In this document: positions 20,304 to 36,278 of the stretch, piece after piece
Position numbering within the stretch: the first letter of the stretch is position 1
Layout of the letters: each line of letters begins with the position of its first letter
Assembly (NCBI GenBank): GCA_025363655.1
Contig: JANYDK010000109.1
Coordinates: 1-64,000, forward strand
Length of the DNA: 64,000 nucleotides
Direction of reading: 5' to 3'
From: Deltaproteobacteria bacterium
GTDB lineage: Bacteria > Myxococcota_A > Polyangia > Polyangiales > JADJMO01
Notes under the pieces: generated by a model
Database searches by the model: none
What the model was told of the DNA's origin: nothing
The model's input: the letters and a program-made list of their open reading frames with translations, nothing else
Made by a program: the position numbers and the translations under genes

Positions 20304-21406
20304 GCCGTTTTTTCCGGATCATCGTCGCGTTCCTCGGCTTCGCCTTCGTGGTCGGCACTGCCTTCGGGTACGCGTTCGCGCGCCTCGATGGCGACGACAT
20401 CTGGGCGCTACGATGGGACCGGCCGTGGTTTCTCCTCGGTCTCGTCGTGGTGCCGCTCGTCTTGGTGCGGGCGACGGTCGGCGAGGATGCGCGCGTGCCT
20501 CGCTTGCGGGTGCCGAGCATCGACGCCGGGCGGGCAGCGATCGGCGGGATTCGCGCTCGTTTTCGCGACGTGCCGGGCGTCTTGCGGGCGGCGGCGCTCG
20601 CGCTCGTCGTCGTCGCGATGGCGAGACCGCAGTCGCTCGGTGCTGCCGAGATCGACGAACGCAGCGGCATCGACATCATGATCTCGCTCGACCTCTCGGG
20701 CTCGATGCGCGCAGCCGACCTGCGACCGACGCGGCTCGAAGCGGCGAAGGCGGTGGTGCAGGAGTTCATCGAACGGCGCACGACCGATCGCATCGGAGCG
20801 GTGATTTTCGCGCGAGACGCGTTCCTCCTCTCGCCGCTGACCTTCAACCACACGGCGCTGGCGCAGCTCGTCGGCAAGATGAAGATCGGCCTCGAGGGCG
20901 TGAGCGGTGACGGCACCGCGATCGGCGACGGGCTCTCGCTTTCGATCGCGCGGCTCCGCAAATCGAAGGCGACCACCAAGGTGGTGGTGCTTCTCACGGA
21001 CGGTGACAACAACGCCGGCAAGCTCAGCCCCGAGTACGCGATGGCCGCCGCCAAGGAGCTCGGCATCAAGATCTACACGGTGCAGATGGGCAACGGCGAC
21101 GAGGTCGATGTCGAGGTCGACAAAGATCCGTACGGGCGTCCAATCTACGGAAGAGCCAAATTTCCCGTGCGCCCTGAGCTGCTGAAGCAGATCGCCTCGG
21201 AGACCGGGGGCGAGATGTACATCGCCACGCAGACCGACGAGCTGCGCTCTTCGATGCACGCCATCCTCGACAATCTGGCGAAGACGCGCTTCGAGATGGC
21301 CTCGTCCGATCCGGTCGAGCGCTTCGGGCTGGTGCTGGTGCCGGCGGTGGCGCTGGTGATTCTGGAGTCACTCCTGCGCGCGATGCTCCTCCGGAGGTTC
21401 CCGTGA
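20300..21406 (+). CDS. batA: BatA-type VWA membrane protein
   Basis: A VWA protein of the Bat aerotolerance group, 368 aa. Membrane segments flank the domain near the N-terminus (residues about 5-25 and 40-60) and at the C-terminus (LVLVPAVALVILESLL). The metal-ion site (MIDAS) is complete: DLSGS, a Thr in DGTAIG, and Asp in LLTDGDNN. BatA and BatB are thought to form a periplasmic complex. Overlaps of 4 bases with both flanking genes show operon structure. Confidence 0.92.
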   Translation: MSRFFRIIVAFLGFAFVVGTAFGYAFARLDGDDIWALRWDRPWFLLGLVVVPLVLVRATVGEDARVPRLRVPSIDAGRAAIGGIRARFRDVPGVLRAAALALVVVAMARPQSLGAAEIDERSGIDIMISLDLSGSMRAADLRPTRLEAAKAVVQEFIERRTTDRIGAVIFARDAFLLSPLTFNHTALAQLVGKMKIGLEGVSGDGTAIGDGLSLSIARLRKSKATTKVVVLLTDGDNNAGKLSPEYAMAAAKELGIKIYTVQMGNGDEVDVEVDKDPYGRPIYGRAKFPVRPELLKQIASETGGEMYIATQTDELRSSMHAILDNLAKTRFEMASSDPVERFGLVLVPAVALVILESLLRAMLLRRFP

Positions 21407-22500
21407 GCTTCGCGTACCTCTGGGTGCTCTGGCTCTTGCCGATTCCGCTCGCGCTCCTCGGGCTGATGCTCTTCGGAGACGTGGCGAGGCGCAAGGCGAC
21501 GAGCAAGCTCGGCGTGCCGACGATGATCGATCGGCTCGTCACCTTCGACGCCGGTCCGCGTCGTGCGTTCAAGGGCGCGCTGCGAGTGCTCGCCGTCGTC
21601 TTCGCGATCATCGCCGCCGCGCAGCCTCGCTACGGACGTGGCACCAAGATCGTCCCGGCGGCGGACGTCAGTGCGATGGTGGTCTTCGACGTTTCCAAAT
21701 CGATGTACGCGCAAGACGTCTTGCCGTCGCGACTCGAGCGCGGACGCAACGACGTCGCGCGAATGGTCAAAGGGCTGCCGCAGATTCGTTGGGGAGCGGT
21801 CGCCTTCGCGGGTGAAGCGGTGGCGAGCCCGCCGAGCATCGATCCTTCGGAAGCGCTGCAATTCCTCAGCGGGCACGAGCCCTACGAGATGCCGGGCGGA
21901 ACGGCGATCGCGCGCGCGCTCGAGCTCGCACGTCGCCAGCTGGTGCCGCAAGGGCTCGATGGTCAGCCCGTGCAGCCGACGACGAAGAAGCAGCGGCCGG
22001 TGATCGTCCTCGTCACCGACGGTGAAGATCTCGAAGGCGATCCCGTCGCCGTCGCCCGCGCGTGCAAGGACGAAGGCATCCAGATCCACGTGGTGATGGT
22101 CGGTGGGCGCGCGCCGCAGCCGATCCCCGACGTCGATCCCGACTCGGGCGTGGCCAATGGCTACGTGCACGACAACGGGCAGCTGGTGACGACCGAGCTG
22201 ACGCCGGAGGCCGAGGCGCAGCTGCGAGGGATCGCCGCCGAGACGAAGGGTGTGTTCGTTCGTTCGGAGGACGGCACCACCGGGCTCCTCAAGGTCGAGA
22301 CCGAGCTGAAGCGTCTCATCGCCACCGAGGGCGGCGAGCGGGTCGACGTGCTCTACGCCGAGCAGTACGCGATTCCACTCGGCATCACCTTCGTCCTCCT
22401 GCTCGTCGACGTCTTCGTCGGTGAAGCGCGGCGTCGTCGCAAATCGGACACGAACGACCTGGAAAACAGGCTCGGCGTGGGGGTGACCCATGCGCGCTGA
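21403..22500 (+). CDS. batB: BatB-type VWA membrane protein
   Basis: Second VWA protein, 365 aa. It has N-terminal membrane segments (YLWVLWLLPIPLALLGLMLF and ALRVLAVVFAIIAAAQP), MIDAS FDVSKSMYAQD, the Thr in MPGGTAIARAL and the Asp in LVTDGEDLEG, then a C-terminal span (YAIPLGITFVLLLVDVFVG). It probably works with BatA and the MoxR ATPase. It overlaps the next gene by 11 bases. Confidence 0.92.
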   Translation: MSFAYLWVLWLLPIPLALLGLMLFGDVARRKATSKLGVPTMIDRLVTFDAGPRRAFKGALRVLAVVFAIIAAAQPRYGRGTKIVPAADVSAMVVFDVSKSMYAQDVLPSRLERGRNDVARMVKGLPQIRWGAVAFAGEAVASPPSIDPSEALQFLSGHEPYEMPGGTAIARALELARRQLVPQGLDGQPVQPTTKKQRPVIVLVTDGEDLEGDPVAVARACKDEGIQIHVVMVGGRAPQPIPDVDPDSGVANGYVHDNGQLVTTELTPEAEAQLRGIAAETKGVFVRSEDGTTGLLKVETELKRLIATEGGERVDVLYAEQYAIPLGITFVLLLVDVFVGEARRRRKSDTNDLENRLGVGVTHAR

Positions 22501-23620
22501 GCATGTCGCACGCCTCCTCGTCGTCGTCTCGGTGCCGCTCGCGATCGGCCTCTTCCTCGGCGCGTGCTCGTGGGATCTGGGAAAGATTTTCGATCGCGAC
22601 GATCCGCAGGTCGAGCATGCGAGGCAGGCGCTCGAAGCCTCGGCCTATGGCGGCGACGCCGATTTGACGAGCGCGCGGCGCGATCTCGAGGAGGTGCTCG
22701 AGTATCGCTGCGAAGGCGACGGCGGTCGCGACCTGGTGATCGATCGTCCCTTCGCATCGCTCGATCTCGGGCTCGTCATCTTTCGCATCAGCGAGCTCGT
22801 GGGCCGTCGCTTCGGGGAAGAAGAGATGGGGCCGAGCACGGGCGAAGAGGCCGAGAGCGTCACCGCGGCGCGGGCGAAGGAGCTCGATTGTGCGCATCTC
22901 TTGCTCCTCAAGCTGGCGAACGATCCGACGACGACGCCGGCGATGCGACTTCGCGCGCGCTATCTGCTCGGCAACTTCGAGTTCCTCTCGCAGCGGTACG
23001 AGCAATCGATCGTCGAGTATGATCGCGTGCTGGTCGCGCATCCGGCGCGGGGCATCGATCCAGCGGGTGAGGTCGGACCGCCGAGCGACGACGACGCCGT
23101 TGCCCGCGATGCCGCGTGGAATCGTGCGATCGCGCTCAAGCGCATTCACGACAAAGACGCCGGCAGCGACTCGGGACCCGACGCCGACGCCGACTCGGGC
23201 AACGATGGCGAGACCGATGGCGACGCGGGACAAGACAGCGACGGCGAGACCGACGCGGCCGACGCCAGTGACAGCGAGACTCCCGACGCCGGACAAGACA
23301 GCGACAGCGGCGATGGCAACGGCGACACTGGCGGCGACACCGGCAACGACGGCAAAGACACGGGCGGCGACGCGAAGAACGACAAGGGTGACACCGCGGT
23401 CGACGAGGGTGGCCCTTCGGACAGCGGGCAGGACACCAAGGCGCCCGCGTCTCCCTCGCAACAGCCGCAGCCGCAGAGCAGTGCCGCGCCGCAACCCGCA
23501 CCGTCCGGCGGCATCGATCTGCGAGAGCTCGATCGCCTGGAAAAACAAGCACCGCTCGATCTCGACCTGCCCCAGAAGTTGAAGGAGCGGAAGAAGCTCC
23601 CGAAGGGGCTCGACAAATGA
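22490..23620 (+). CDS. BatC-like lipoprotein with acidic repeat
   Basis: A 376-aa lipoprotein (lipobox LFLGAC). The N-terminal half is helical with a TPR-like region (LRARYLLGNFEFLSQRYEQS). Residues about 222-310 are an extreme Asp/Ser/Gly/Thr tract with DSDG- and DTGGD-type units. A Pro/Gln stretch and a basic end follow (PQKLKERKKLPKGLDK), similar to the C-terminal tail of BatC proteins. It lies between batB and batD. The acidic tract may bind divalent ions or space the domain; this is inference. Confidence 0.72.
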   Translation: MRAEHVARLLVVVSVPLAIGLFLGACSWDLGKIFDRDDPQVEHARQALEASAYGGDADLTSARRDLEEVLEYRCEGDGGRDLVIDRPFASLDLGLVIFRISELVGRRFGEEEMGPSTGEEAESVTAARAKELDCAHLLLLKLANDPTTTPAMRLRARYLLGNFEFLSQRYEQSIVEYDRVLVAHPARGIDPAGEVGPPSDDDAVARDAAWNRAIALKRIHDKDAGSDSGPDADADSGNDGETDGDAGQDSDGETDAADASDSETPDAGQDSDSGDGNGDTGGDTGNDGKDTGGDAKNDKGDTAVDEGGPSDSGQDTKAPASPSQQPQPQSSAAPQPAPSGGIDLRELDRLEKQAPLDLDLPQKLKERKKLPKGLDK

Positions 23621-25536
23621 TCGCGACACGTCGAGGACGTCGGCGAGGTAGAGGATGGCGGCTCGCAGCGCTCATCGCGGCGACGACTCCGCTCGCAGCG
23701 ACGTCGCTGTTCGATCTCGGCGGCGTGCCGAGCGCAGAGGCAGCGGGAGCGTCGGGCAAGGCCGAGGTCGACGGCGCGACGGTCGGGATCGGTGACGTGC
23801 TCGAGTACACGCTGACGGTGACCTCGAGCGGTGACGACTCGCCGGCGCGCAATCCGACGCCGGGAAGTACCGACGGCTTCACGCTCGTGAAGACCACGAC
23901 CTCGACGCAGCACTCGTTCTCCTTCGGCGGCGGTGGGGGCAAATCGTCGGTCTCGGTCACCGTGCGCTATCGACTTCGCGCAGAAAAACTGGGCGTTCAC
24001 ACGCTCGGTCCGGGGCGCATGTACGTCGACGGCGTGCCGGTGAAGACGCCCGCCGTCACCGTCAACGTCGTCCCCGCGGGCAAGGCCCCGAAGGCGAAGC
24101 CGGCCGCGCCCGATCCGTTCACCGACGACTCGTTCTTCGGCGGCGATCCTCCGCAGCCCGTGGACGAGCCGCCGCCGACGCCGAACATCGCGCCGGTCGA
24201 TCCGCTCGCGGCCGTCGATTCGCTCCCGACCGATCCGGCCGAGCGCACGATCTTCGTCCGCATCGTCCCGGCGACGCGTCGTCCGGTGGTCGGTGAGCAG
24301 GTGACGACCAAGCTCTTCGTCTACACGCTGCATCCACCGCGGTTGGCCGTGAAGAGGCCGCCCACGTTCCCCGACTTCGCGACCATCGACCTCGGCCACA
24401 TCGACAGCGAGTGGCATCCGATGACCATCGGCGGGCAACACTGGGCCTACGCCGCTGCCGCTGGATACGGCGCATTTCCCTTGAAAACAGGCTCGCTGAC
24501 GATTGGCGCGGCGGAGGTCGAGTACGCCGATCCGTTCGCGCCTTCGGGAGGTCACGACCTGGCGTCCAACACCGTGTCGCTCGAGGTGATCGAACCGCCG
24601 CTCGACGGGCGACCGCCCGGTTACGTGCTCGGCGACGTCGCGAGCGATCTGCACGTCCTCGCCGAGCTCACCCCACGACTCGTCGTCGACGGGCACGCGG
24701 TGCTGACGTTGCGGATGCGCGGCAACGGCAGGCTCGACGGTCTTCGCGCGGTGCTCCCGAGCCCAGCGGGAGTGACCTGGACCCCGACCGGTGACGAGGC
24801 GAAGACGGAGGTCGACGGCACCGCGGTGCGTGGTGCGCGCAAGCTCGTCTACGACTTGGCGTTCGAAACGCCAGGCGATTACGAGCTCGGCGACGCCGCC
24901 TTCCACGTCTGGGATCCTCAGAAAAAAACCTACGCATCGCCGTCGGCGAGCATCGGCAAGGCGCGCGTGACGAAGGCGGTGGCGCCCGCTTCTTCGACGG
25001 AGGCGGCGGGGCCCATCGACAAGCTGCCCGACGTGAGGCACGAGCTCGGCGCCGGCGGTGAAGGGAGCTCGCTCGCCGATCACACCTGGACCTTCGGGCT
25101 CATCGCAGGAATGCCGCTCGCGGTGGTGCTCGCGCAAGGCGGCGTCGCCTTCGCGCGGCGTTCGCTTCGTAAGCGTGCCGCGACCAAAGAGCGGCCCGAG
25201 TCGCTCGCCGAGATGGCCCTCGCCGAAGCGCGCGACGCGGAGAAACGTGGAGACGTGCCGGCGTGCGCAGCGGCCTCGACGCGGGCCATCGATCGCTCGC
25301 TCGAAGCGGCGACGGGGCTCCGTTCGCGTGGCCTGACGACGAGCGAGCTGACGCGTGGGCTCGGCGAGGCAGGCGTCGAGGACGCGCTCGGCACGCGAAT
25401 CATCGAGGCGCTCGCGTCGCTCGAAGCAGCACGTTTCGCCGGTGCAGGGATGCCGACCGTCGCCGAAGTCTCGCGCATCGTCGGTGCGCTTCATGAGCTC
25501 GCCCGTCGCGCCGCGAGCTCGGAGGCGCCTTCGTGA
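23617..25536 (+). CDS. batD: BatD family membrane protein
   Basis: A 639-aa protein: signal sequence (ALIAATTPLAATSLF), then tandem Ig-like beta domains typical of BatD (VGIGDVLEYTLTVTSSG, VSVTVRYRLRAEKLGVHTLG, TIFVRIVPATRRPVVGEQVT, YRL-type strands). A membrane span follows near LIAGMPLAVVLAQGG, and a cytoplasmic helical region closes the protein. BatD is the large periplasmic part of the Bat system. It is coupled to both neighbours by 4-base overlaps. Confidence 0.88.
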   Translation: MIATRRGRRRGRGWRLAALIAATTPLAATSLFDLGGVPSAEAAGASGKAEVDGATVGIGDVLEYTLTVTSSGDDSPARNPTPGSTDGFTLVKTTTSTQHSFSFGGGGGKSSVSVTVRYRLRAEKLGVHTLGPGRMYVDGVPVKTPAVTVNVVPAGKAPKAKPAAPDPFTDDSFFGGDPPQPVDEPPPTPNIAPVDPLAAVDSLPTDPAERTIFVRIVPATRRPVVGEQVTTKLFVYTLHPPRLAVKRPPTFPDFATIDLGHIDSEWHPMTIGGQHWAYAAAAGYGAFPLKTGSLTIGAAEVEYADPFAPSGGHDLASNTVSLEVIEPPLDGRPPGYVLGDVASDLHVLAELTPRLVVDGHAVLTLRMRGNGRLDGLRAVLPSPAGVTWTPTGDEAKTEVDGTAVRGARKLVYDLAFETPGDYELGDAAFHVWDPQKKTYASPSASIGKARVTKAVAPASSTEAAGPIDKLPDVRHELGAGGEGSSLADHTWTFGLIAGMPLAVVLAQGGVAFARRSLRKRAATKERPESLAEMALAEARDAEKRGDVPACAAASTRAIDRSLEAATGLRSRGLTTSELTRGLGEAGVEDALGTRIIEALASLEAARFAGAGMPTVAEVSRIVGALHELARRAASSEAPS

Positions 25537-26264
25537 GCGATCCGACGTTCGACGACGCGACCTCGGCGCTCGAAGGCGGAAGGGCCGACACCGCGGTGGC
25601 GCTCTTCGAATCGCTCGCCGATCACGGCGTGGTCGGCGCTGGAGTCGCCTTCGATCGCGGCCTCGCCTACGCCGCCCGTGCCCACACCGGGCAAGGCGTC
25701 ACTGGCGACTTCGGACGCGCGGTCCATGCCTTCGAAGAGGCGCTGCGACGTTCGCCCAACGATCGCGAAGCGGCCCGCGCCCTGGAAATCGTGCGTCGGG
25801 AGATCGCACGACGAGAAGTGGCGGGCGGAGCCAAAGCCGAAGAGGTCGGTGCACCGCCGATGTGGCGCGCCCTCGTGACGGCTGCACCGGCCGATGCATG
25901 GATGGCGATCGCCCTTCTTTCCTCGCTCGCACTCTCCGTCGCGCTCGCGGTGCGACCCCGCGTCCAGAGAGGCTTGCGCTTGGCAGCTTCGACGACGGCG
26001 ATCGTCGGCTTCTTCGTCGCGGTGCTCGCCAGCGCGCTCGGCTTCGGTGCCAGCTACTTGCGACGCAACGTGCGTGAGGCGGTGGTCGTGGTCCCCGGGC
26101 TCGTCGCCAAACCGATGGGCAGCGGCGATCCACTTCGCCTCGTCGAAGGCACGCGGGTCGACGTCCTCGAAGAGCGGATGTCGGAGGCCCACGTGCGAAC
26201 CGATCGCGGCGAGGGCTGGCTCCCGCGATCGGCGCTCCGCACCTTGCCGCCTTATCGGCCCTGA
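25533..26264 (+). CDS. BatE-like TPR/SH3 membrane protein
   Basis: A 243-aa protein with N-terminal TPR units (TAVALFESLADHGVVGAGVA and FGRAVHAFEEALRRSPNDR), two membrane spans (MAIALLSSLALSVALAV and STTAIVGFFVAVLASALGF), and a C-terminal SH3-like domain (EGTRVDVLEERMSEAHVRT, GEGWLP). This order matches BatE proteins. It is the last gene of the bat operon; its stop is one base from the convergent stop of the DUF4139 array. Confidence 0.82.
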   Translation: MSDPTFDDATSALEGGRADTAVALFESLADHGVVGAGVAFDRGLAYAARAHTGQGVTGDFGRAVHAFEEALRRSPNDREAARALEIVRREIARREVAGGAKAEEVGAPPMWRALVTAAPADAWMAIALLSSLALSVALAVRPRVQRGLRLAASTTAIVGFFVAVLASALGFGASYLRRNVREAVVVVPGLVAKPMGSGDPLRLVEGTRVDVLEERMSEAHVRTDRGEGWLPRSALRTLPPYRP

Positions 26265-26265
26265 A

Positions 26266-27735
26266 TCAGCACCAACGCACTCGCACGCGGTACTTCACCT
26301 TCACTTCGCCCTTGGCCGGGACCTTGGGGTGGAAGAGGAAGGTGAATTGATCTCGCTTCTCGGCCGGCAACGACGAGCTGAGAATTTCCCAGTCGCCGCC
26401 GGCCGGCTCGACGAGCTCGACCTCTTCGATCGAGTCCTTGTGGTTGCGGACGGAGATTTCGTAGGCGCTCTCGGAGACGCAGGAGCCGAACGGTTTCCAA
26501 TCGGTTTGCTTCTTGTCGGCGACGATGTCGAAAGCCTCGCCCATCTTCACGCGCACCTTCTCGTCGCGCGCGGTGTGATCGATGGCGTCTTCGCCGATGA
26601 ACTGCTTGGCGCCCGACTTGTCGGCTTTGTAGACCCGGACCGTGCCCTTCGGCAGCGGAATTCCCAGGTGATTCGACTCTTTGTTCTCGATGTCGAGATA
26701 GACGCCGACCTTCTGATTGTTGGCGATGAAGCCGCCGTAGCTCGAGTGGTAGTAGTAGCTCGCGCCGCCGAAGATGAGCTTCTTCGTCAGCTTGATGCCC
26801 TTGCCTTCGAGCAGCGTCACCTGCTTCTGCTCGTTGTTCTGCAGCGTCGTCGGCACGTTGAGCGTGTAGAGGTGGTACTCGAAGAGCCCCTCTTCGACGA
26901 ACTTGGGCTTGGCCGGCTCCTTCGCCTTTTCGAGGTAGATCCCGCCCTCGCCTTTGCCACCCATCGGGTAGTCGACGACTTTGTGCACGTTGCCGGCGAC
27001 GAGCTTCAGCTGCGCGTTCTCGTACGTCGTGCCGGTCGTGTTGTTGAGCGTGACCCAGCCTTGCAGGTCGCCGAGGGTGTCTTTGTCGTCGATGGAAAGC
27101 ACGTAGTCGGCCTTCCAACCAAAGCCGCGCGAGAGGTAGGTGACCTCGACTTTTTGCGTCGCCGCCGTGCTGTCGAGGAGCCACACCAGCGTCGGCTTGG
27201 CGATGAGATTGGCCGGCACTTCCGGGAAGGCGATGCGCCCGGGGAAGCCGTAGGTGATCTCGCCGTTGATTTGATAGACCGGTGAGCCGCTCGCCACCGA
27301 GAGCACCTTGGCGTCGAAGGCGTCTTCTTTTCCGGTGGCGCCGTTCCAGCGATAGAGCTTCACCATCTTGCCGACGTACTTCTCGAGCAGCTTCTGCGGG
27401 CTCAAGAGGTCGTAGCGATAGTTCTGCTCGAAGACCTTCAGCGACGTCGCGGTGTTGCCCTTGATGGCCACCGTCTCGGGCTGGATTTGCGCGGAGACGT
27501 CGCGCAACTCGAGGCTCGCACGACCCGTTCCGAGCGGAATTTCTCGGGTCTCGCGCACGAGGCCGAAGCCATCGTTGTAGACGGTGACGGAGACTTCCTT
27601 GCGCTGCTCCATCGTCGAGACGAGCGACTTGCCTGCCGTCTGCGCTTGCGAAGGCGTGACCAGACCGGAGAGCACCGCGAGGCCGGCGGCCGCCAGGAGA
27701 CTCGCCGGAATTCGGAAGGTGGAGCGGTTCAACAC
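26266..27735 (-). CDS. DUF4139 protein, array copy 5
   Basis: Last of five tandem paralogues, 489 aa, with a Sec signal peptide ending around SQAQ. The DUF4139 core is clear: VSVTVYNDGFGLVRETREI, ADYVLSIDDKD, a middle region ending in FEYHLYTLNVPTTLQNNEQK, then PLPKGTVRVYKADKSGAKQF and a C-terminal RVRVRWC. Start: GTG at 27735 or TTG at 27732, both overlapping the end of copy 4, so translation is probably coupled. It is very close to copy 4. The function of the family is not established; a beta-rich envelope protein is likely. Confidence 0.88.
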   Translation of the reverse strand: MLNRSTFRIPASLLAAAGLAVLSGLVTPSQAQTAGKSLVSTMEQRKEVSVTVYNDGFGLVRETREIPLGTGRASLELRDVSAQIQPETVAIKGNTATSLKVFEQNYRYDLLSPQKLLEKYVGKMVKLYRWNGATGKEDAFDAKVLSVASGSPVYQINGEITYGFPGRIAFPEVPANLIAKPTLVWLLDSTAATQKVEVTYLSRGFGWKADYVLSIDDKDTLGDLQGWVTLNNTTGTTYENAQLKLVAGNVHKVVDYPMGGKGEGGIYLEKAKEPAKPKFVEEGLFEYHLYTLNVPTTLQNNEQKQVTLLEGKGIKLTKKLIFGGASYYYHSSYGGFIANNQKVGVYLDIENKESNHLGIPLPKGTVRVYKADKSGAKQFIGEDAIDHTARDEKVRVKMGEAFDIVADKKQTDWKPFGSCVSESAYEISVRNHKDSIEEVELVEPAGGDWEILSSSLPAEKRDQFTFLFHPKVPAKGEVKVKYRVRVRWC

Positions 27736-29201
27736 CAACGCACCCGTACGCGGTACTTCACCTTCACTTCGCCCTTGGCCGGGACCTTGGGGTGGAAGAG
27801 GAAGGTGAATTGATCTTTCTTCTCCGCGGGCAACGAGGAGCTGAGGATTTCCCAATCGCCGCCGGCGGGCTCGACGAGCTCGACCTCTTCGACTGAGTCT
27901 TTGTGGTTCCGCACCGAGATTTCGTAGGCGCTCTCGGAGACGCAGGAGCCGAAGGGTTTCCAGTCGGTTTGCTTCTTGTCGGCGACGACGTCGAAGGCTT
28001 CACCCATCTTCACGCGCACCTTCTCGTCACGCGGCGTGTGGTCGATGGCGTCCTCGCCGATGAACTGCTTGGCGCCCGACTTGTCGGCTTTGTAGACGCG
28101 CACCGTGCCTTTCGGCAGCGGAATTCCCAGGTGATTGGCCTCTTTGTTCTCGATGTCGAGATAGACGCCGACCTTCTGATTGTTGGCGATGAAGCCGCCG
28201 TAGCTCGAGTGGTAGTAGTAGCTCGCGCCGCTGAAGATGAGCTTCTTGGTGACCTTGATGCCTTTGCCTTCGAGCAACGAGACTTGCTTCTGCTCGTTGT
28301 TCTGCAGCGTCGTCGGGACGTTCAGCGTGTAGAGGTGGTACTCGAAGAGCCCCTCTTCGACGAACTTCGGCTCGGGCGCTTTCTCCGCGATCTTCTTCTT
28401 GTAGTCGCCGGCGTAGTCGTCCTTCCCCTCAGGGTAGGAGTAGACCTTGTGCACGTTGCCGGCGACGAGCTTCAGCTGCGCGTTCTCGTAGGTGGTGCCG
28501 GTCGTGTTGTTGAGCGTGACCCACCCTTGGAGGTCACCGACGGCGTCTTTGTCGTCGATCGAGAGGACGTAGTCGGCCTTCCAACCGAAGCCGCTCGACA
28601 GGTACGTGACCTCGACTTTTTGGCTCGCCGCCGTGCTGTCGAGGAGCCACACCAAGGTCGGCTTCGGGATCAAATTCGCCGGAACTTCCGGGAACGCGAT
28701 GCGACCGGGGAAGCCGTAGGTGATCTCGCCGTTGATTTGATAGACCGGTGAGCCGCTCGCCACCGAGAGCACCTTGGCGTCGAAGGCGTCTTCTTTTCCA
28801 GTCGCGCCGTTCCAGCGATAGAGCTTCACCATCTTGCCGACGTACTTCTCGAGCAGCTTCTGCGGGCTCAAGAGATCGTAGCGATAGTTCTGCTCGAAGA
28901 CCTTCAGCGACGTCGCGGTGTTGCCCTTGATGGCCACCGTCTCGGGTTGGATTTGTCCCGAGACGTCGCGCAGCTCGAGGCTCGTGCGACCCGTTCCGAG
29001 CGGGATTTCTCGGGTCTCGCGCACGAGGCCGAAGCCGTCGCTGTAGACCGTGACCGAGACGTCTTTTCGCTGCGCCATCGTCGAGACGAGCGACTTGCCC
29101 GCCGTCTGCGCTGACGAAGGACCCGCGAGGCCGGCGATGAGCGCGAGACCCGCGAGACCCGCGAGACCCGCGAGGCGACCGATGGATCGGCGGTTCAACA
29201 C
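27729..29201 (-). CDS. DUF4139 protein, array copy 4
   Basis: A 490-aa secreted protein with a Leu/Ala/Gly-repeat signal peptide (RLAGLAGLAGLALIAGL, then SSAQ). Domain content is the same as copy 5, with long identical stretches such as FEQNYRYDLLSPQKLLEKYV and NQKVGVYLDIENKE. The main difference is a charged loop (about 270-290, DDYAGDYKKKIAEKAPEP). The GTG start at 29201 overlaps the end of copy 3 (stop at 29195). It ends in RVRVRWC. Confidence 0.88.
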   Translation of the reverse strand: MLNRRSIGRLAGLAGLAGLALIAGLAGPSSAQTAGKSLVSTMAQRKDVSVTVYSDGFGLVRETREIPLGTGRTSLELRDVSGQIQPETVAIKGNTATSLKVFEQNYRYDLLSPQKLLEKYVGKMVKLYRWNGATGKEDAFDAKVLSVASGSPVYQINGEITYGFPGRIAFPEVPANLIPKPTLVWLLDSTAASQKVEVTYLSSGFGWKADYVLSIDDKDAVGDLQGWVTLNNTTGTTYENAQLKLVAGNVHKVYSYPEGKDDYAGDYKKKIAEKAPEPKFVEEGLFEYHLYTLNVPTTLQNNEQKQVSLLEGKGIKVTKKLIFSGASYYYHSSYGGFIANNQKVGVYLDIENKEANHLGIPLPKGTVRVYKADKSGAKQFIGEDAIDHTPRDEKVRVKMGEAFDVVADKKQTDWKPFGSCVSESAYEISVRNHKDSVEEVELVEPAGGDWEILSSSLPAEKKDQFTFLFHPKVPAKGEVKVKYRVRVRWC

Positions 29202-30682
29202 CAACGCACCCGAACGCGCCAGGTGACCTTGACCTCGCCTTTGGCAGGCACCGGAACATCGAACGTGAACACTTGTTGCGACTCCTTCGTCGACGGATGG
29301 CTGGAGGCGACGATCGTCCAATCGCCGCCCGCCGGCTCGACGACGAGCACGTTCTCGGCCTTCTCTTTGTGATTGCGGAGCGAGAGCTCGTAGGCGCTCT
29401 CGGAGGAGCAGGTGCCGAGCGGCTTCCAGTCGATTTGCTTCTTGTCGGCGACGATGTCGAAGGCCTCACCGAGCTTGATGCGCACCTTCTCGTCGCGCGG
29501 CGTGTGATCGATCGAGTCTTCGCCGATGAACTGTTTGGCGCCCGATTTGTCTTTCTTGTAAACGCGGAGCGCGCCCTTCGGGAGTGGCATGCCGAGGTGG
29601 TTCGACTCTTTGTTCTCGATGTCGAGGAAGACGCCGACCTTCTGGTTCTGCGTCACCCAGCTGCCCGAATAGTTGCTGCGATAGGCGTAGCTGCTGCCGT
29701 TGAAGATCAGCTTCTTGCCGAGCTTGATGCCGCTCGCTTCGAGGAGCGACACCTGCTTCTGCTCGTTGTCGAGGAGCGTCGTCGGCTGATCGAGCGAGTA
29801 GAGGTGGTACTCGAAGAAGCCCTCTTCGACGAAGCTCGGCGCGGCGTTGCCCGCGGCGGCCGACGCCTTCGCCATCACCGGCGCGTCGTAGGCTCCGTCT
29901 TGGTCTTGCGGGGGCTGGAAGTGTTGCACGTTGCCGGCGACGAGCTTCAGTTGCGCGTTCTCGTAGGCGACGCCGCTGCTGTTGCGGAGCGTGACCCAGC
30001 CTTTGAGATCGCCGAGCGTGTCGGTGTCGTCGACGTCGAGCACGTAGTCGGCCTGCCAGCCGATGCCGTTGGTGAGGTAGGTGACCTCCAGCTTCTGCTT
30101 CGCCACCGACGAGCCGAGGAGCCACACCAAGGTCGGCTTGGCGATGAGGTTCGCCGGCACGTCGGGGAAGGCGATGCGACCGGGAAAACCGTAGGTGATG
30201 CGATCGCCGATTTTGTAGACCGGCTGTCCACCGTCGACCGAGAGGACCTCGGCGTCGAAGGAGTCTTCACCGTTCGTCGCTTCGTTCCAGCGGTAGAGCT
30301 TCACCTTCTTGCCGACGTACTTCTCGAGGAGCGTGCCCGGCGTCAGCAAATCGAAGCGGTAATTCTGCTCGTAAATCGCCATCGAATCGGCGTTGGTGAG
30401 CGATTTGACGTGCACCGTCTCGGGCTGGATGTACGAGGCGACGTCGCGAAACTCGAGCTCGACGCGCCCGGTGGGGACGTCGATGTTGCGCACCTCGCGC
30501 ACGAGCCCGAAGTTGGAGTTGTAGACGGTGATGCCGACCGACTCGCGCTGCGCGGCCGTCGATTGACCCGGATGCACCGGACCGTCGAAGCCGGGCTTCG
30601 GCGACTTGGCGTTGCCGCACGCGATCAGCGTGGCAGCGGCGGCGAAGGTCGCGAGAGCGGAGGTGAGGCGCTGCGTGCTCAT
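29195..30682 (-). CDS. DUF4139 lipoprotein, array copy 3
   Basis: A 495-aa lipoprotein: MSTQRLTSALATFAAAATLI then the lipobox Cys. The ATG at 30682 is 2 bases from the stop of copy 2, suggesting re-initiation; an in-frame TTG at 30694 also exists. The core is as in the family (VGITVYNSNFGLVREVRNID, GWVTLRNSSGVAYENAQLKL), with a loop containing Gln/Asp/Ala-rich sequence at about 250-280. It is more diverged than copies 4 and 5 and shares the GxxxPG-ST post-lipobox region with copy 1. Confidence 0.88.
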   Translation of the reverse strand: MSTQRLTSALATFAAAATLIACGNAKSPKPGFDGPVHPGQSTAAQRESVGITVYNSNFGLVREVRNIDVPTGRVELEFRDVASYIQPETVHVKSLTNADSMAIYEQNYRFDLLTPGTLLEKYVGKKVKLYRWNEATNGEDSFDAEVLSVDGGQPVYKIGDRITYGFPGRIAFPDVPANLIAKPTLVWLLGSSVAKQKLEVTYLTNGIGWQADYVLDVDDTDTLGDLKGWVTLRNSSGVAYENAQLKLVAGNVQHFQPPQDQDGAYDAPVMAKASAAAGNAAPSFVEEGFFEYHLYSLDQPTTLLDNEQKQVSLLEASGIKLGKKLIFNGSSYAYRSNYSGSWVTQNQKVGVFLDIENKESNHLGMPLPKGALRVYKKDKSGAKQFIGEDSIDHTPRDEKVRIKLGEAFDIVADKKQIDWKPLGTCSSESAYELSLRNHKEKAENVLVVEPAGGDWTIVASSHPSTKESQQVFTFDVPVPAKGEVKVTWRVRVRWC

Positions 30683-30684
30683 CT

Positions 30685-32154
30685 TCAGCACCAACGCACG
30701 CGCACGCGGTACTTCACCTTCACCTCACCCTTGGCCGGAACCTTGGGGTGGAAGAGGAAGGTGAATTGATCTTTCTTTTCCGAGGGAAGCGACGAGCTGA
30801 GGATTTCCCAATCGCCACCGGCGGGCTCGACGAGCTCGACCTCTTCGGCGGTGTCCTTGTGGTTGCGCACCGAGATTTCGTACGCGCTCTCGGAGACGCA
30901 GGTGCCGAACGGCTTCCAGTCGGTTTGTTTGCGATCGGCGACGACGTCGAAGGCTTCGCCCATCTTGATGCGAATCTTCTCGTCGCGCGGGGTGTGGTCG
31001 ATGAGGTCTTCGCCGATGAACTGCTTGGCGCCCGACTTGTCGGCTTTGTAGACCCGCACCGTGCCCTTCGGCAGCGGAATTCCCAGGTGATTCGACTCTT
31101 TGTTCTCGATGTCGAGATAGACGCCGACCTTCTGGTTCTGCGAGATGAAGCCTCCGTAGCTCGAGTGGTAGTAGTAGTTCGAGCCGCTGAAGATCAGCTT
31201 CTTCAGCACCTTCACGTCCTTGCCTTCGAGCAGCGTCAGTTGCTTCTGCTCGTTGTCGAGGATCGTCGTCGGCGCGCTCAGCGTGTAGAGGTGGTACTCG
31301 AAGAAGCCCTCTTCGTTGAACTTCGGCGGAGGAGGCGGCGCAGCGCTCGCGGTCGCCGCCGGCACGCCCGGGTAGTAGCCGCCGCCGTAGTTTTGAATTT
31401 TCTGCACGTTGCCGGCGACGAGCTTGAGCTTGGCGTTCTCGTACGCCGCGCCGGTGCCGTTGGTGAGGGTGACCCAGCCGGTGAGATCGCCGAGGTCGTC
31501 TTTCTCGTTGAGCGAGAAGACGTAGTCGGCCTTCCAACCGAAGCCGCGCGTGAGGTACGTGACCTCGACCTTCTGCTTCGGAGCCGTGCTGTCGAGGTTC
31601 CACACCAAGGTCGGCTTGGCGATGAGGTTCGCCGGCACCTCCGGGAAAGCGATGCGACCGGGGAAATCGTAGGTGATTTCACCGTTGATCTTCATCACCG
31701 ACTGACCACCGGCGACCGAGAGCACCTCGGCGTCGAAGGCGTCTTCCTTCCCCAGCTTCTCGTTCCAGCGATAGATTTTCACCTTCTTGCCGACGTACTT
31801 CTCGAGCAGCTTCTGCGGGCTCAAGAGGTCGTAGCGGTAGTTCTGCTCGAAGACCTTGAGCCCGCCGCCGCTGACCGGCTTGATCGAGACCGTCTCCGGC
31901 TGAATCTGCGAAGAGACGTCGCGGAACTCGAGGGCGACGCGGCCGGTGCCGATGGGGATGTCGCGGATCTCGCGGACGAGGCCGAAGCCGTCGTTGTAGA
32001 CGGTGATGCCGACCTCCGTTCGCTGCGCCGAGGTCGACGTCAGCGACTTGCCCGCAGACTGCGCGGAGGCACCACCGGCGAGCAGCGGAACGGCGGCGAT
32101 GGCGGCCAAGAGCCACGGGCTGGCGGTGAGAAACAGGCTCCGTCGACGAGTCAT
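30685..32154 (-). CDS. DUF4139 protein, array copy 2
   Basis: A 489-aa secreted protein. The signal peptide begins MTRRRSLFLTASPWLLAAIA and could be Tat-like (RR-containing), cleaved near GASAQS. It shows the same DUF4139 modules (VGITVYNDGFGLVREIRDIP, FEYHLYTLSAPTTILDNEQK, PLPKGTVRVYKADKSGAKQF) and ends in RVRVRWC. A Gly/Tyr/Ala/Pro loop (NYGGGYYPGVPAAT) replaces the charged loop of copy 4. It is separated from copy 1 by 58 bases, the longest gap in the array. Confidence 0.88.
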   Translation of the reverse strand: MTRRRSLFLTASPWLLAAIAAVPLLAGGASAQSAGKSLTSTSAQRTEVGITVYNDGFGLVREIRDIPIGTGRVALEFRDVSSQIQPETVSIKPVSGGGLKVFEQNYRYDLLSPQKLLEKYVGKKVKIYRWNEKLGKEDAFDAEVLSVAGGQSVMKINGEITYDFPGRIAFPEVPANLIAKPTLVWNLDSTAPKQKVEVTYLTRGFGWKADYVFSLNEKDDLGDLTGWVTLTNGTGAAYENAKLKLVAGNVQKIQNYGGGYYPGVPAATASAAPPPPPKFNEEGFFEYHLYTLSAPTTILDNEQKQLTLLEGKDVKVLKKLIFSGSNYYYHSSYGGFISQNQKVGVYLDIENKESNHLGIPLPKGTVRVYKADKSGAKQFIGEDLIDHTPRDEKIRIKMGEAFDVVADRKQTDWKPFGTCVSESAYEISVRNHKDTAEEVELVEPAGGDWEILSSSLPSEKKDQFTFLFHPKVPAKGEVKVKYRVRVRWC

Positions 32155-32212
32155 CGGGCAATCTCCTTCAATTTGAGAACGGCGTTCTCGAGAAAAAAAC
32201 TGGTCGTCATGA

Positions 32213-33688
32213 TCAGCACCAGCGCACGCGGACGCGGTACGTGACCTTTGTCTCGCCCTTCTTCGGCACCATCACCTCGAAGAAGAACGTTTGTTGATCG
32301 TCTTTGGTCGGGTTGTGGCTCGACTGGAGAATCGTCCAATCGCCGCCGGCGGGCTCTTCGATGCGCACCGTCTCGTCCGTGTCCTTGTGGTTGCGGACCT
32401 TGATTTCCCAGGCGCTCTCCGAGAGGCAGTAGCCCATCGGCTTCCAGTCGGTTTGCTTCTTGTCGGCGACGACGTCGAAGGCCTCGCCCATCTTCACGCG
32501 CACCTTCTCGTCGCGCGGCGTGTGGTCGATGAAGTCTTCGCCGATGAACTGCGGGCTCCCCGATTTGTCGGCCTTGTAGACGCGAACGGTGCCCTTCGGC
32601 AGCGGCATTCCCAGCTTGTTCGCCTCTTTGTTCTCGATGTCGAGGTAGACGGCGACCTTCTGGTTCTCTTGCAGTCCGTAGTCGTTGCGGAACTCGTAGC
32701 CGTCGCCGCGGAAGATGAGCTTCTTGTCGAGCTTGATGCCCTTGGCCTCGAGCAGCGACACCTGCTTCTGCTCTTTGTCCTTCACCGAGGTCGGCTGATC
32801 GAGCGTGTAGAGGTGGTATTCGAAGAAGCCCTCTTCCACGAATTTCGGCGCCTCTTCCGCGATCTCTTTGTCCTCGTCGAGCTCGTCGACGATGGTGGTG
32901 GTCTCGGTCATCGGCGGCGCGATTTTCTGGACGTCGCCGGCGACGAGCTTGAGCTTGGCGTTCTCCCAACTGGCGCCGCTCTGGTTGGTCAGCGTCACCC
33001 AACCTTGCAGGTCACCCAGCTTGTCCTCGGCGTCGATGAGCAGCACGTAGTCGGAGCGCCAGCCCATGTTCGAAGTGAGGTAGGTGACCTCGACCTTCTG
33101 TTCGGCGACGCCGCTGCCGAGGAGCCAGACCAACGTCGGCTTGGCGACGAGGTTCTTCGGCACCTCTGGGAACGAGACGCGACCCGGGAAACCGTAGGTG
33201 ATTTCACCGCCGACGTTGAAGACGGGCGAGCCGCCTTCGGTCGAGAGCACCTCGGCGTCGAAGTCTTCGTCCTTGCCGAGGAGACGGTTGTAGCGATGGA
33301 GGATGACCTTCTTGCCGACGTACTTCTCGAGCAGCTTCTGCGGGCTCAAGAGGTCGTAGCGATAGTTCTGTTCGACGACCGCGAGCGCACCTGGATCGGT
33401 CAGCGAGCGGATGTGCACCGTCTCGGGCTGGATGTGCGCGGAGACGTCGCGGTACGCGAGCTCGACCTTGCCGACCGGGAGCTTGACCCGCCGAATCTCG
33501 CGAACGAGGCCGAAATTCTGGTTGTAGATGGTGATGCCGACCGACTCGCGATCGACCGCGGTCGATTCGCCGGGCTTGCTCGGCCCCTCGAAGCTGGCCT
33601 TGGCACCCGACGTCTGCGACGGGCCCGCCGGACAACCGACGAGCAGGAGCGGGGCGACGAGCGCCCATGGCAACGATCTGACGGACAA
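32213..33688 (-). CDS. DUF4139 lipoprotein, array copy 1
   Basis: First gene of the five-gene array, 491 aa, with lipobox LLLVGC. Modules are as in the others: VGITIYNQNFGLVREIRRVK, EEGFFEYHLYTLDQPTSVKD, PLPKGTVRVYKADKSGSPQF, ending in RVRVRWC. Its variable loop is acidic with many Thr and Glu residues (ETTTIVDELDEDKEIAEEAP). No promoter was identified in the 132 bases upstream. The array probably yields one polycistronic mRNA through copy 5. Confidence 0.88.
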   Translation of the reverse strand: MSVRSLPWALVAPLLLVGCPAGPSQTSGAKASFEGPSKPGESTAVDRESVGITIYNQNFGLVREIRRVKLPVGKVELAYRDVSAHIQPETVHIRSLTDPGALAVVEQNYRYDLLSPQKLLEKYVGKKVILHRYNRLLGKDEDFDAEVLSTEGGSPVFNVGGEITYGFPGRVSFPEVPKNLVAKPTLVWLLGSGVAEQKVEVTYLTSNMGWRSDYVLLIDAEDKLGDLQGWVTLTNQSGASWENAKLKLVAGDVQKIAPPMTETTTIVDELDEDKEIAEEAPKFVEEGFFEYHLYTLDQPTSVKDKEQKQVSLLEAKGIKLDKKLIFRGDGYEFRNDYGLQENQKVAVYLDIENKEANKLGMPLPKGTVRVYKADKSGSPQFIGEDFIDHTPRDEKVRVKMGEAFDVVADKKQTDWKPMGYCLSESAWEIKVRNHKDTDETVRIEEPAGGDWTILQSSHNPTKDDQQTFFFEVMVPKKGETKVTYRVRVRWC

Positions 33689-33820: not shown

Positions 33821-34894
33821 CTAACCTGACATCGAGCTGGCTGAATCTTCGGCCCGTTCGAGCGCGAAGGGGATCTTCGCCGCGGCGAGACGCGACTTGG
33901 TCGTCGCCAAGGAGACGGGGCTCTCGTCGACGGTGACGAACGGTCGCCCGAGGCGCGCCGCCACCACCGCCGTCGTCCCGCTCCCGCCGAAGCAGTCGAG
34001 GACGCGATCGCCTGCATTGCTCGTCGCTTCGAGCAGACGCTCGAGGAGCTTCTCCGGTTTCTGGGTCGGATATCCAGTGCGCTCGAGAGGCGAAACGTGA
34101 CGGAGCGGCGGCACGTCGTCCCAAAAGCTGTCGACTGCGCGCGGCTTCAGCGGCGTGCCGTCGACACCGACCTCGAGGAAGTACTTCACGTAGACCTTCC
34201 CGCTCGGCGTGCGATGGATGCGTCCTTCGCGCTCGAGGCGCGAAACGCTCTCGTCGGTGTAGTCGCCGCGCGGGGCGAGGGTGAAGAATTTCTGCGCCGC
34301 CTCGTCCCACCTCGGCTTGCCCTCTTTCAGCGGCGTGAGCACGTGGAGCCGGTTGAAACGAGGCGAATCGCCCTTCGCATAACCAAGCAATGTATCGACG
34401 TTGCGGGGGAACTGTCCGCTCTGCACCTGCCTCCCGAGCGGCGGCGCGCGCCTCCAGGCGATGGCGTTGCGGAAGCGTTGCACGCCGAAGATTTCGTCGA
34501 GCAGTACTTGGAGCAAGTGCGCGGCGCGGTGATCGACCTGCACCCAAATCGTCCCGTGTGGTGCGAGCAGACGATGGAGGAGACGAAGGCGCGGATAGAG
34601 CACGTCGAGGTAATCGCCGCGCTGCGCCCAACGATCTTTGTAGGCGTGGGTGCGGGCGCCTTTGCCGTCTTCGTGCGCGTAGTCGGCGCCACTCATGTAC
34701 GGCGGATCGAGATACGTCCAGTCGATCGAGCCTTCGCCGCCTTCTTCGAGGAGCGCGCGCAGGGCGAGGAGGTTGTCACCGACGACGACGCGGCCCTTCG
34801 AGCCCTCGGGCGGAGGCTCGACCGGTACCAGGCGGGCGCCACGCGTCTCGATCGGTCGATCGTCGCGGCCCGGCCAGGTGAGTCGAACGGACAC
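33821..34894 (-). CDS. site-specific DNA methyltransferase (adenine type)
   Basis: A 357-aa enzyme with motif IV DPPY (in DWTYLDPPYMSGADYAHED) and the SAM-binding motif I near the C-terminus (VLDCFGGSGTTAVVAARLG), the order seen in beta-class N6-adenine/N4-cytosine methyltransferases. RTGYPTQKPEKLLERLL precedes motif I, as usual. The start is set at the GTG 34894; longer frames run into the divergent transpeptidase gene. No restriction endonuclease gene is adjacent, so it looks solitary, for regulation or phage defence. Confidence 0.9.
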   Translation of the reverse strand: MSVRLTWPGRDDRPIETRGARLVPVEPPPEGSKGRVVVGDNLLALRALLEEGGEGSIDWTYLDPPYMSGADYAHEDGKGARTHAYKDRWAQRGDYLDVLYPRLRLLHRLLAPHGTIWVQVDHRAAHLLQVLLDEIFGVQRFRNAIAWRRAPPLGRQVQSGQFPRNVDTLLGYAKGDSPRFNRLHVLTPLKEGKPRWDEAAQKFFTLAPRGDYTDESVSRLEREGRIHRTPSGKVYVKYFLEVGVDGTPLKPRAVDSFWDDVPPLRHVSPLERTGYPTQKPEKLLERLLEATSNAGDRVLDCFGGSGTTAVVAARLGRPFVTVDESPVSLATTKSRLAAAKIPFALERAEDSASSMSG

Positions 34895-34943
34895 CAGACG
34901 CGCGTACCGCGGCCTGCGCGGCGATGGTACCGTGGTCGCACGA

Positions 34944-36278
34944 ATGACCTGGAAATCTTCGTCTCTGCGTGCGCTATCGCTGCCATCGCTCGCGCTCGTC
35001 GCGGTCCTCGCGACGTTGTCGATCGCCGGGCTCCTCGATGCACGCACGAAGCTCGCGCGCGCCGACGAGCCGGCACCGTCGTCGTCGATTTGGCTGACCA
35101 AGGGCGACGTGCCGCTCGCCGATTGGGCCACGAGCGTGGAGATTCTCCGCGACGACGAGGCGCTTTCGATCGCCCCCGCCGGTGCGCGTCGTGGGCTCAT
35201 CGCCGCCGGCGTGAAGCTCCCTCTCCTCGGCGCGATTCGCGGACCCGGCTGCACCGGACGTTGGCTCTTGGTCGGACCGCTGGCCTACGTTTGCAGCGAC
35301 AAAGTGCAGCTCTCGAGCGATCCGCCGGGCGTCGCCCAGACCATCCACCCGACGCCGCTCGATGGGCTCCCCTATCGCTACTACTTCGTCGGCGCCGAGG
35401 GCGCGGACGCCTACGCCAAGCTCGCCGACGTCGCCGACGAGACGCCGAGCACGCAGCTCGACAAGGGCTGGGCGGTCGCTGGAGTCACCGAGGTCGGCTA
35501 CCAAGGCACCGTCTACATCCGCACGCGCAAGAACGAATACATCCCGAAGAAGCAGCTCGCTCCCGTGACGGCGACGAGCTTCCACGGCGAAGTGCTGGCG
35601 CTCGCCGAGGGTGACGCGCCCGACGTCGGTTGGGTGCTCCCCGACAAGGCCAACGTCTTCGCCGCTGGGAAGGCCGGCAGCAAGAGCGTCGGCGCGCGCA
35701 CGCGGCTGCAGAAAATCAACGTGCTCGAGACGACGAAGACGGGCGACGGCAAGGGCGGCTTCGTCCGCATCGGCGACGGCGAGTGGATGCGCGCGATCGA
35801 TTTGCGCGTACCGACGAAGGCGCTCCTCCCCGAAGGTCTCGGCCCGGGTGAGCGTTGGATCGACGTCGACACCACCACGCAGACCGTCGTCGCCTACGAG
35901 GGCGCGCGCCCCGTCTTCGCCACCGTGATGTCGAGCGGAAGGCCGGGCTCACCGACGCCGAAGGGAACCTTTCACATCTGGGTCAAGCTCCGGAGCGCGA
36001 CGATGTCGAACGCCGACGATCCGCCGGAGACCACCGAAGACGCAGCGACGTACTCGATCGAAGACGTGCCCTGGGTGCAGTACTTCGAGAAGGGCGTCGC
36101 GCTGCATGGGGCGTTTTGGCACCGCAAGTTCGGCTACGTGCACAGCCATGGGTGCGTGAACCTGGCGCCGCTCGACGCCATGCGCCTCTTCGAGTGGACC
36201 CTCCCGCGCCTCCCGCGAGGGTGGGATGCCGCCTTCCCGACGACCGCCGAGCCGGCGACGATCGTCAAAGTCCGATAA
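34944..36278 (+). CDS. L,D-transpeptidase (YkuD)
   Basis: Makes 3-3 peptidoglycan cross-links or attaches proteins to the wall. It has 444 aa, with a signal/anchor segment (LSLPSLALVAVLATLSIAGLL), a periplasmic N-terminal region and a C-terminal YkuD domain. Catalytic residues appear in VALHGAFWHRKFGYVHSHG followed by CVNL (His and Cys of the SHGC motif). The ATG at 34944 follows only 49 bases after the divergent methyltransferase start. A hairpin terminator overlaps its stop region. Confidence 0.93.
   Translation: MTWKSSSLRALSLPSLALVAVLATLSIAGLLDARTKLARADEPAPSSSIWLTKGDVPLADWATSVEILRDDEALSIAPAGARRGLIAAGVKLPLLGAIRGPGCTGRWLLVGPLAYVCSDKVQLSSDPPGVAQTIHPTPLDGLPYRYYFVGAEGADAYAKLADVADETPSTQLDKGWAVAGVTEVGYQGTVYIRTRKNEYIPKKQLAPVTATSFHGEVLALAEGDAPDVGWVLPDKANVFAAGKAGSKSVGARTRLQKINVLETTKTGDGKGGFVRIGDGEWMRAIDLRVPTKALLPEGLGPGERWIDVDTTTQTVVAYEGARPVFATVMSSGRPGSPTPKGTFHIWVKLRSATMSNADDPPETTEDAATYSIEDVPWVQYFEKGVALHGAFWHRKFGYVHSHGCVNLAPLDAMRLFEWTLPRLPRGWDAAFPTTAEPATIVKVR

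Follow-up and report, generated by a model that had tools for sequence, protein, structure and literature searches.

Five tandem DUF4139 paralogues with a copy-specific loop: a candidate envelope module of two subunit kinds in a myxobacterial-type genome

Introduction

Why should one genome keep five secreted copies of a protein side by side, alike in their bodies and different in one short loop? The question is raised by a minus-strand tandem array (33688-26266) of five head-to-tail DUF4139 genes, here called A to E, in a window of 64,000 nucleotides, by which we mean the whole stretch of DNA that was analysed. A first-pass annotation of these letters had described five copies of one protein, two as lipoproteins and three with cleavable signals, each with its own version of one loop on a fixed scaffold, and had suggested either a set of subunits or different ligands. 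We know of no established molecular function for this widespread family. Mentions of DUF4139 in the literature searched were incidental only, and no description of tandem two-class DUF4139 arrays with copy-specific loops was found there.

Materials and Methods

The array was compared with loci from about 30 related genomes. Automatic signal calls were corrected by eye before tree building for a few secreted copies, where a Cys falls within the hydrophobic stretch, and for one lipoprotein (LWGC). To tell a fast-changing loop from an old one, divergence was compared at silent sites.

Results

Array and gene starts. Open reading frames and PF13598 matches bear out the single-strand array of secreted paralogues, down to the terminal RVRVRWC in five of five copies, and a profile search of the whole genome (9.0 Mb, myxobacterial-type) gave DUF4139 matches in these five copies only. 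The division into two lipoproteins and three cleavable signals also stands: judged by sequence, A (LVGC) and C (LIAC) are bacterial lipoproteins with a lipobox ending the signal peptide, and B, D and E carry ordinary signal peptides (Table 1). For D and E the listed open reading frame starts are too early: the genes begin about 117 bases further downstream, at TTG/GTG codons overlapping the preceding stop codon, so that each gene overlaps the one before it by about 10 bases. Most related loci of the order have the same layout, with the start codon within the preceding gene's last codons. Since the starts of C, D and E fall within or right behind the last codons of the previous gene and this layout is recurrent, the array very likely forms one translationally coupled operon; no internal sigma-70-type promoters were found in it.

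Table 1. Features of the array, in positions of the window
Feature	Positions	Strand	Description
Copy A	32213-33688	-	lipoprotein class, lipobox LVGC; TTG start behind GGAGG; 491 aa; DUF4139
Copy B	30685-32154	-	signal-peptide class; ATG start behind AAGGAG; 489 aa
Copy C	29195-30694	-	lipoprotein class, lipobox LIAC; start overlapping B stop codon (TTGGTGCTGA), alternatively ATG at 30682
Copy D	27729-about 29204	-	signal-peptide class; start within C's last codons (TTGGTGTTGA)
Copy E	26266-about 27738	-	signal-peptide class; closest paralogue D (core 93% nt); start within D's last codons
Internal cysteine A	32426-32428	-	same 70-residue spacing as in B
Internal cysteine B	30898-30900	-	exactly 70 residues before C-terminal cysteine
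Internal cysteine C	29408-29410	-	same 70-residue spacing
Internal cysteine D	27942-27944	-	same 70-residue spacing
Internal cysteine E	26479-26481	-	same 70-residue spacing
Loop of A	32846-32929	-	acidic: QKIAPPMTETTTIVDELDEDKEIAEEAP
Loop of B	31324-31404	-	Gly/Tyr/Pro: QKIQNYGGGYYPGVPAATASAAPPPPP; predicted disordered, pLDDT 41-48
Loop of C	29837-29926	-	Gln/Ala: QHFQPPQDQDGAYDAPVMAKASAAAGNAAP
Loop of D	28368-28451	-	charged: HKVYSYPEGKDDYAGDYKKKIAEKAPEP
Loop of E	26905-26985	-	charged: HKVVDYPMGGKGEGGIYLEKAKEPAKP
Sm/Hfq-like barrel of B	31639-31809	-	predicted; about 65 residues inserted in N-terminal domain; equivalent stretch in other copies

Family membership. All five copies are close paralogues, though three of them score slightly under the curated PF13598 cut-off of 31.8 bits: A (40.2) and C (32.3) lie above it, and D (30.4), B (26.4) and E (24.4) below. 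The domain is matched at E<=0.01 by all 79 aligned relatives. MuiA of Pseudomonas aeruginosa is weakly similar near the start of DUF4139, but the array copies do not belong to the MuiA family TIGR02231, where the best of them reaches 19.4 bits against a cut-off of 112.6. Nor was the DUF4140 plus DUF4139 architecture found in the array: the N-terminal parts of D (22.1 bits) and E (20.8 bits) resemble PF13600 yet score under its cut-off of 27 bits, and these are the best of the five.

Shared tail. In every full-length copy that bears the RVRVRWC tail, the tail cysteine has a partner exactly 70 residues upstream. Both cysteines are present in 48 of the 79 aligned relatives, neither in 31 and one alone in 0. 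This perfect co-occurrence makes a disulfide between the internal and the C-terminal cysteine likely, which would pin the last strand.

Two paralogue classes. The related genomes hold two classes, lipoprotein and signal-peptide, rather than five equal copies. About 20 genomes of the order have a lipoprotein gene ahead of the signal-peptide gene or genes, with no exception among loci where both are readable. The source genome reads lipo-sp-lipo-sp-sp, where sp is the signal-peptide class; relatives read lipo-sp, lipo-sp-lipo-sp (G101) or lipo-sp-sp (G002, and G004 in fragments). Across a 119-sequence tree, 8 changes account for the lipoprotein label, compared with 22.3 in shuffles, and well-supported branches force at least four class changes; in the source genome A and C are placed beside B, D and E. 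The strong clustering of the labels on the tree indicates that the two classes are old. By the same sequence comparisons, the array is best described as a lipo-sp unit plus a lipo-sp-sp unit, with D and E the youngest pair. The tandem paralogues of the first-pass annotation thus stand, but not as equal members, given two old classes and a young D/E duplication; its proposed set of subunits is favoured by two features, the recurrent order of lipoprotein before secreted copy and the class-linked loop charge described below.

Other arrangements also occur among relatives. In genus g85 of family f14 (L180-L189) each genome has two arrays, in which a single divergent lipoprotein is joined by as many as three secreted copies, and Novosphingobium and a relative (L170-L179) show a tandem pair of very divergent family copies in sphingomonads. 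Gemmatimonadota have mostly one secreted copy in the stretch examined. NC10, Rokubacteria and others have a single copy, without the C-terminal cysteine.

Neighbourhood. No gene neighbours are conserved around the arrays across genera of the order. In the source genome a Bat-type cluster (VWA, BatD and TPR genes, 21403-26264, plus strand) converges with the array and ends one base before the array end. At the other side 132 bases separate copy A from an upstream DNA methylase gene in the same orientation (N6_N4_Mtase, 33821-35254, minus strand); next comes a plus-strand L,D-transpeptidase (YkuD) gene. Neither the Bat-type cluster nor the methylase is conserved beside the arrays of relatives.

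Single-copy loci of other lineages (L135-L160) have a recurrent context: at least 15 of 26 lie directly behind a zf-HC2 anti-sigma-factor-like gene, itself preceded by an ECF sigma factor, with identities from a Pfam check on representatives. The loci with this pair upstream of the homologue are L136, L138, L139, L141, L143, L145, L147, L148, L150, L152, L153, L155, L156, L159 and L160, from NC10, Rokubacteria and other lineages. ECF sigma factor, zf-HC2 protein and DUF4139 homologue are likely to form a regulatory unit there, going by gene order. No such sigma/anti-sigma pair occurs among the neighbours examined near the source array.

Loop divergence. The loop types had been read correctly at first pass (Table 1), and its variability on a fixed scaffold proves stronger than the single sequence showed. 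Among the five copies, protein identity is 64-96% in the core and 15-44% in the loop, a drop limited to the loop and the leader. Loop length is 27-30 residues in the array and nearly fixed (22-31) across all relatives. Six close paralogue pairs have nucleotide identities of 0.86-0.96 in the core and 0.47-0.71 in the loop, where chance level is about 0.51, whereas orthologue pairs with similar cores mostly keep 0.65-0.94 in the loop. Nucleotide identity between the two G101 lipoprotein genes is 95-98% to either side of the loop and falls to chance level within it. Paralogues differ in their leaders too; those of the two G101 lipoproteins are 65% identical in nucleotides though the cores are 95-98%. 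Among pairs whose cores are at least 0.77 identical, the loop/core ratio has a median of 0.65 for paralogues (15 pairs) and of 0.79 for comparisons between species (164 pairs; p = 3e-6, with pairs that are not independent). In the four species of genus g85 each array position keeps its own loop character; the second gene, for example, has a Gly/Tyr-rich loop. The paralogues of this genus are not homogenised, which speaks against a general role of gene conversion. Loops are therefore not random among orthologues of the same position, the pattern that would have refuted the first-pass proposal: orthologous loops are conserved, paralogous loops are not. This conservation between orthologues makes a diversity-generating retroelement an unlikely source of the loops. 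Compensated frameshifts were also rejected as a source, the nucleotide alignments of the loops containing no shifted identity.

Loop charge. Mean net loop charge is -3.0 in lipoproteins (n=23) and +0.67 in secreted copies (n=27), p = 2.6e-6, with counts that are not phylogenetically independent. When the two classes are compared within loci, the lipoprotein has the more acidic loop in 16 of 18 informative cases (paired, 16 to 2). This suggests that anchored and soluble paralogues meet via their loops, or meet partners of different charge.

Silent sites and gene conversion. In 16 orthologue pairs silent divergence (pS) is 0.288 in the loop and 0.279 in the core. In six paralogue pairs it is 0.522 and 0.209 (p = 8e-12), the loop value being uncertain because paralogue loops align poorly; of 48 paralogue loop codons with the same residue, only 15 differ. 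A loop pS far above the core in paralogues, with the two equal in orthologues, fits scaffolds rejuvenated by gene conversion with the loops spared. Divergence drops abruptly at the loop edge, without a gradient, a pattern that rapid loop replacement would explain as readily as protection from conversion. Paralogue loops show very high nonsynonymous change. In orthologues omega is 0.50 in the loop (95% interval 0.38-0.67) and 0.13 in the core, values that place orthologous loops under weak constraint.

In three gene sets (G101/G050, G001/G003 and G004/G002) the loop is nearer the orthologue and the core as near or nearer the paralogue. The first two could also have arisen by duplication after the species split. 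The third is the cleanest case: G002 and G004 both carry the copies S1 and S2, so the duplication is older than their split. Fourfold-site differences in the core are 59 of 266 between paralogues versus 93 of 276 between orthologues (p = 0.003), whereas in S1 both the leader (0.76 versus 0.44-0.53) and the loop (0.80 versus 0.52-0.53) follow orthology. This one testable quartet behaves as expected from loop-sparing gene conversion. Paralogues nearer than orthologues at silent sites, the mark of concerted evolution, are thus found in these relatives, and in the array indirectly, as a mosaic: the upstream half of copy B (core1) is 80-81% identical in nucleotides to D/E and 82% to a copy from another genus, and the downstream half (core2) 88% to D/E and 78% to that genus's copy. 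From these patterns we infer gene conversion as the cause of the alike cores, though for D/E and the G101 pairs the same data may reflect duplication in recent times and rapid change of the loop thereafter.

Predicted structure. An AlphaFold2 model of an array protein is confidently all-beta (mean pLDDT 88.5). The loop, for which the first-pass annotation had proposed structure prediction, is disordered on this scaffold (residues 228-247 of the modelled protein below 50, block means 41-48), and a separate model of the N-terminal part agrees. No solved structures related by sequence were found. Within the match lists obtained, the full-length fold gave weak beta-sandwich and aminopeptidase-N-domain-like matches only. 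The N-terminal half resembles Ost1 and M1 aminopeptidase N-domains (VIA Z 7-8 at an rmsd of about 5, a weak match; Foldseek to Ost1, E 6.5e-5 but TM 0.15), and the C-terminal part common beta sandwiches, several carbohydrate-active ones being among the weak matches. In these exported proteins the N-terminal domain apparently carries an inserted Sm/Hfq-like barrel (Foldseek probability 1.00, TM 0.60 to archaeal Hfq; VIA Z 6-7.5). The models would point to a binding rather than a catalytic role.

Discussion

The account that we prefer, and to which we give about an even chance, is an envelope module of two subunit kinds on one scaffold, with bodies homogenised by conversion and a selected, copy-specific loop. 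The array would be one operon for this module, with the all-beta DUF4139 scaffold throughout. A and C would be lipoprotein subunits anchored in the outer membrane, their predicted location, and B, D and E soluble partners exported to the periplasm, possibly in complex with them. Gene conversion would keep the scaffolds within one genome alike, while the disordered loop, about 27 residues long, would escape homogenisation together with the leader; both would remain specific to each copy, most likely through selection against converts that lost their own loop. The loop would then act as an address that pairs each copy with its own partner or ligand; it is acidic on the anchored subunit and neutral to slightly basic on the soluble one. 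In its wider form, an address system in which bodies are interchangeable by ongoing conversion and identity is held by selection on a short disordered loop, with class-specific charge tendencies kept through speciation, the idea is tentative, and we put it somewhat short of an even chance.

The loop might instead be an unconstrained disordered linker with no copy-specific role, drifting because its heterology bars recombination while the cores are converted. Its predicted disorder and low complexity agree with this, as do the leaders, which likewise diverge between paralogues, and an omega of 0.50, which means weak constraint only. We nevertheless consider such drift rather unlikely: loop length is nearly fixed in all relatives, orthologous loops keep their character by position across species with omega below neutral, charge differs systematically between the classes, and converted stretches flank a loop of 80 bases that conversion tracts should at times span. 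Gene conversion itself could be dispensed with if the tandem duplications were recent and the loop then changed rapidly under positive selection, or if the segment was replaced. The D/E and G101 pairs could be young, their cores being nearer within the genome than to the nearest species, and the very high nonsynonymous change in paralogue loops and the sharp loop edge would follow. That scheme is quite improbable, however, in view of the S1/S2 duplication, which predates the G002/G004 split and yet has nearer core silent sites within genomes, of the converted and unconverted halves of copy B, and of the G101 lipoprotein leaders, so much less alike than their cores.

Another reading, nearer to the different ligands first suggested, is a receptor set rather than one complex, each copy binding a different external ligand (a nutrient, a polysaccharide or a prey surface). 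Different loops on one scaffold and the carbohydrate-active beta sandwiches among the weak structural matches speak for it, but the two-class order and the class-linked loop charge fit subunit roles better, and no neighbour gene of any kind is conserved; we regard it as unlikely.

A role in envelope stress or at the surface is at most a reasonable prior for the family. It comes by analogy, because sigma/anti-sigma genes precede many of the single-copy loci and because muiA of P. aeruginosa, linked to envelope stress, is controlled by SbrI/SbrR, SbrI being an ECF sigma factor (PMC10418997). The ECF association is common to muiA and the single-copy relatives of other phyla.

Paralogues under concerted evolution with an island of divergence are a known phenomenon, met here in a family without established function. 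What the array singles out as the probably important part is a loop whose identity looks protected from gene conversion. The array offers a testable model of a disordered segment that sets subunit specificity on a common fold, and lets selection against gene conversion be studied in bacteria as a natural experiment.

Where gene conversion operates, a peak of divergence has been described as a mark of selection for difference (Teshima and Innan, reviewed in PMC3924837). The human red/green opsin genes have such a peak at a functional site (PMC3924837); the likeness to the array lies in the peak, and the difference is that its functional consequence is known for the opsins, whereas the DUF4139 peak is known from sequence. 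Closer in kind are homA/homB and babA/babB of Helicobacter pylori, paralogous envelope proteins with a related segmental pattern, in which one segment evolves in concert and a divergent middle segment defines the alleles (PMC2795765). Their segment alleles are common to both genes across strains, whereas each DUF4139 loop, about 27 residues long, stays with its gene position from species to species.
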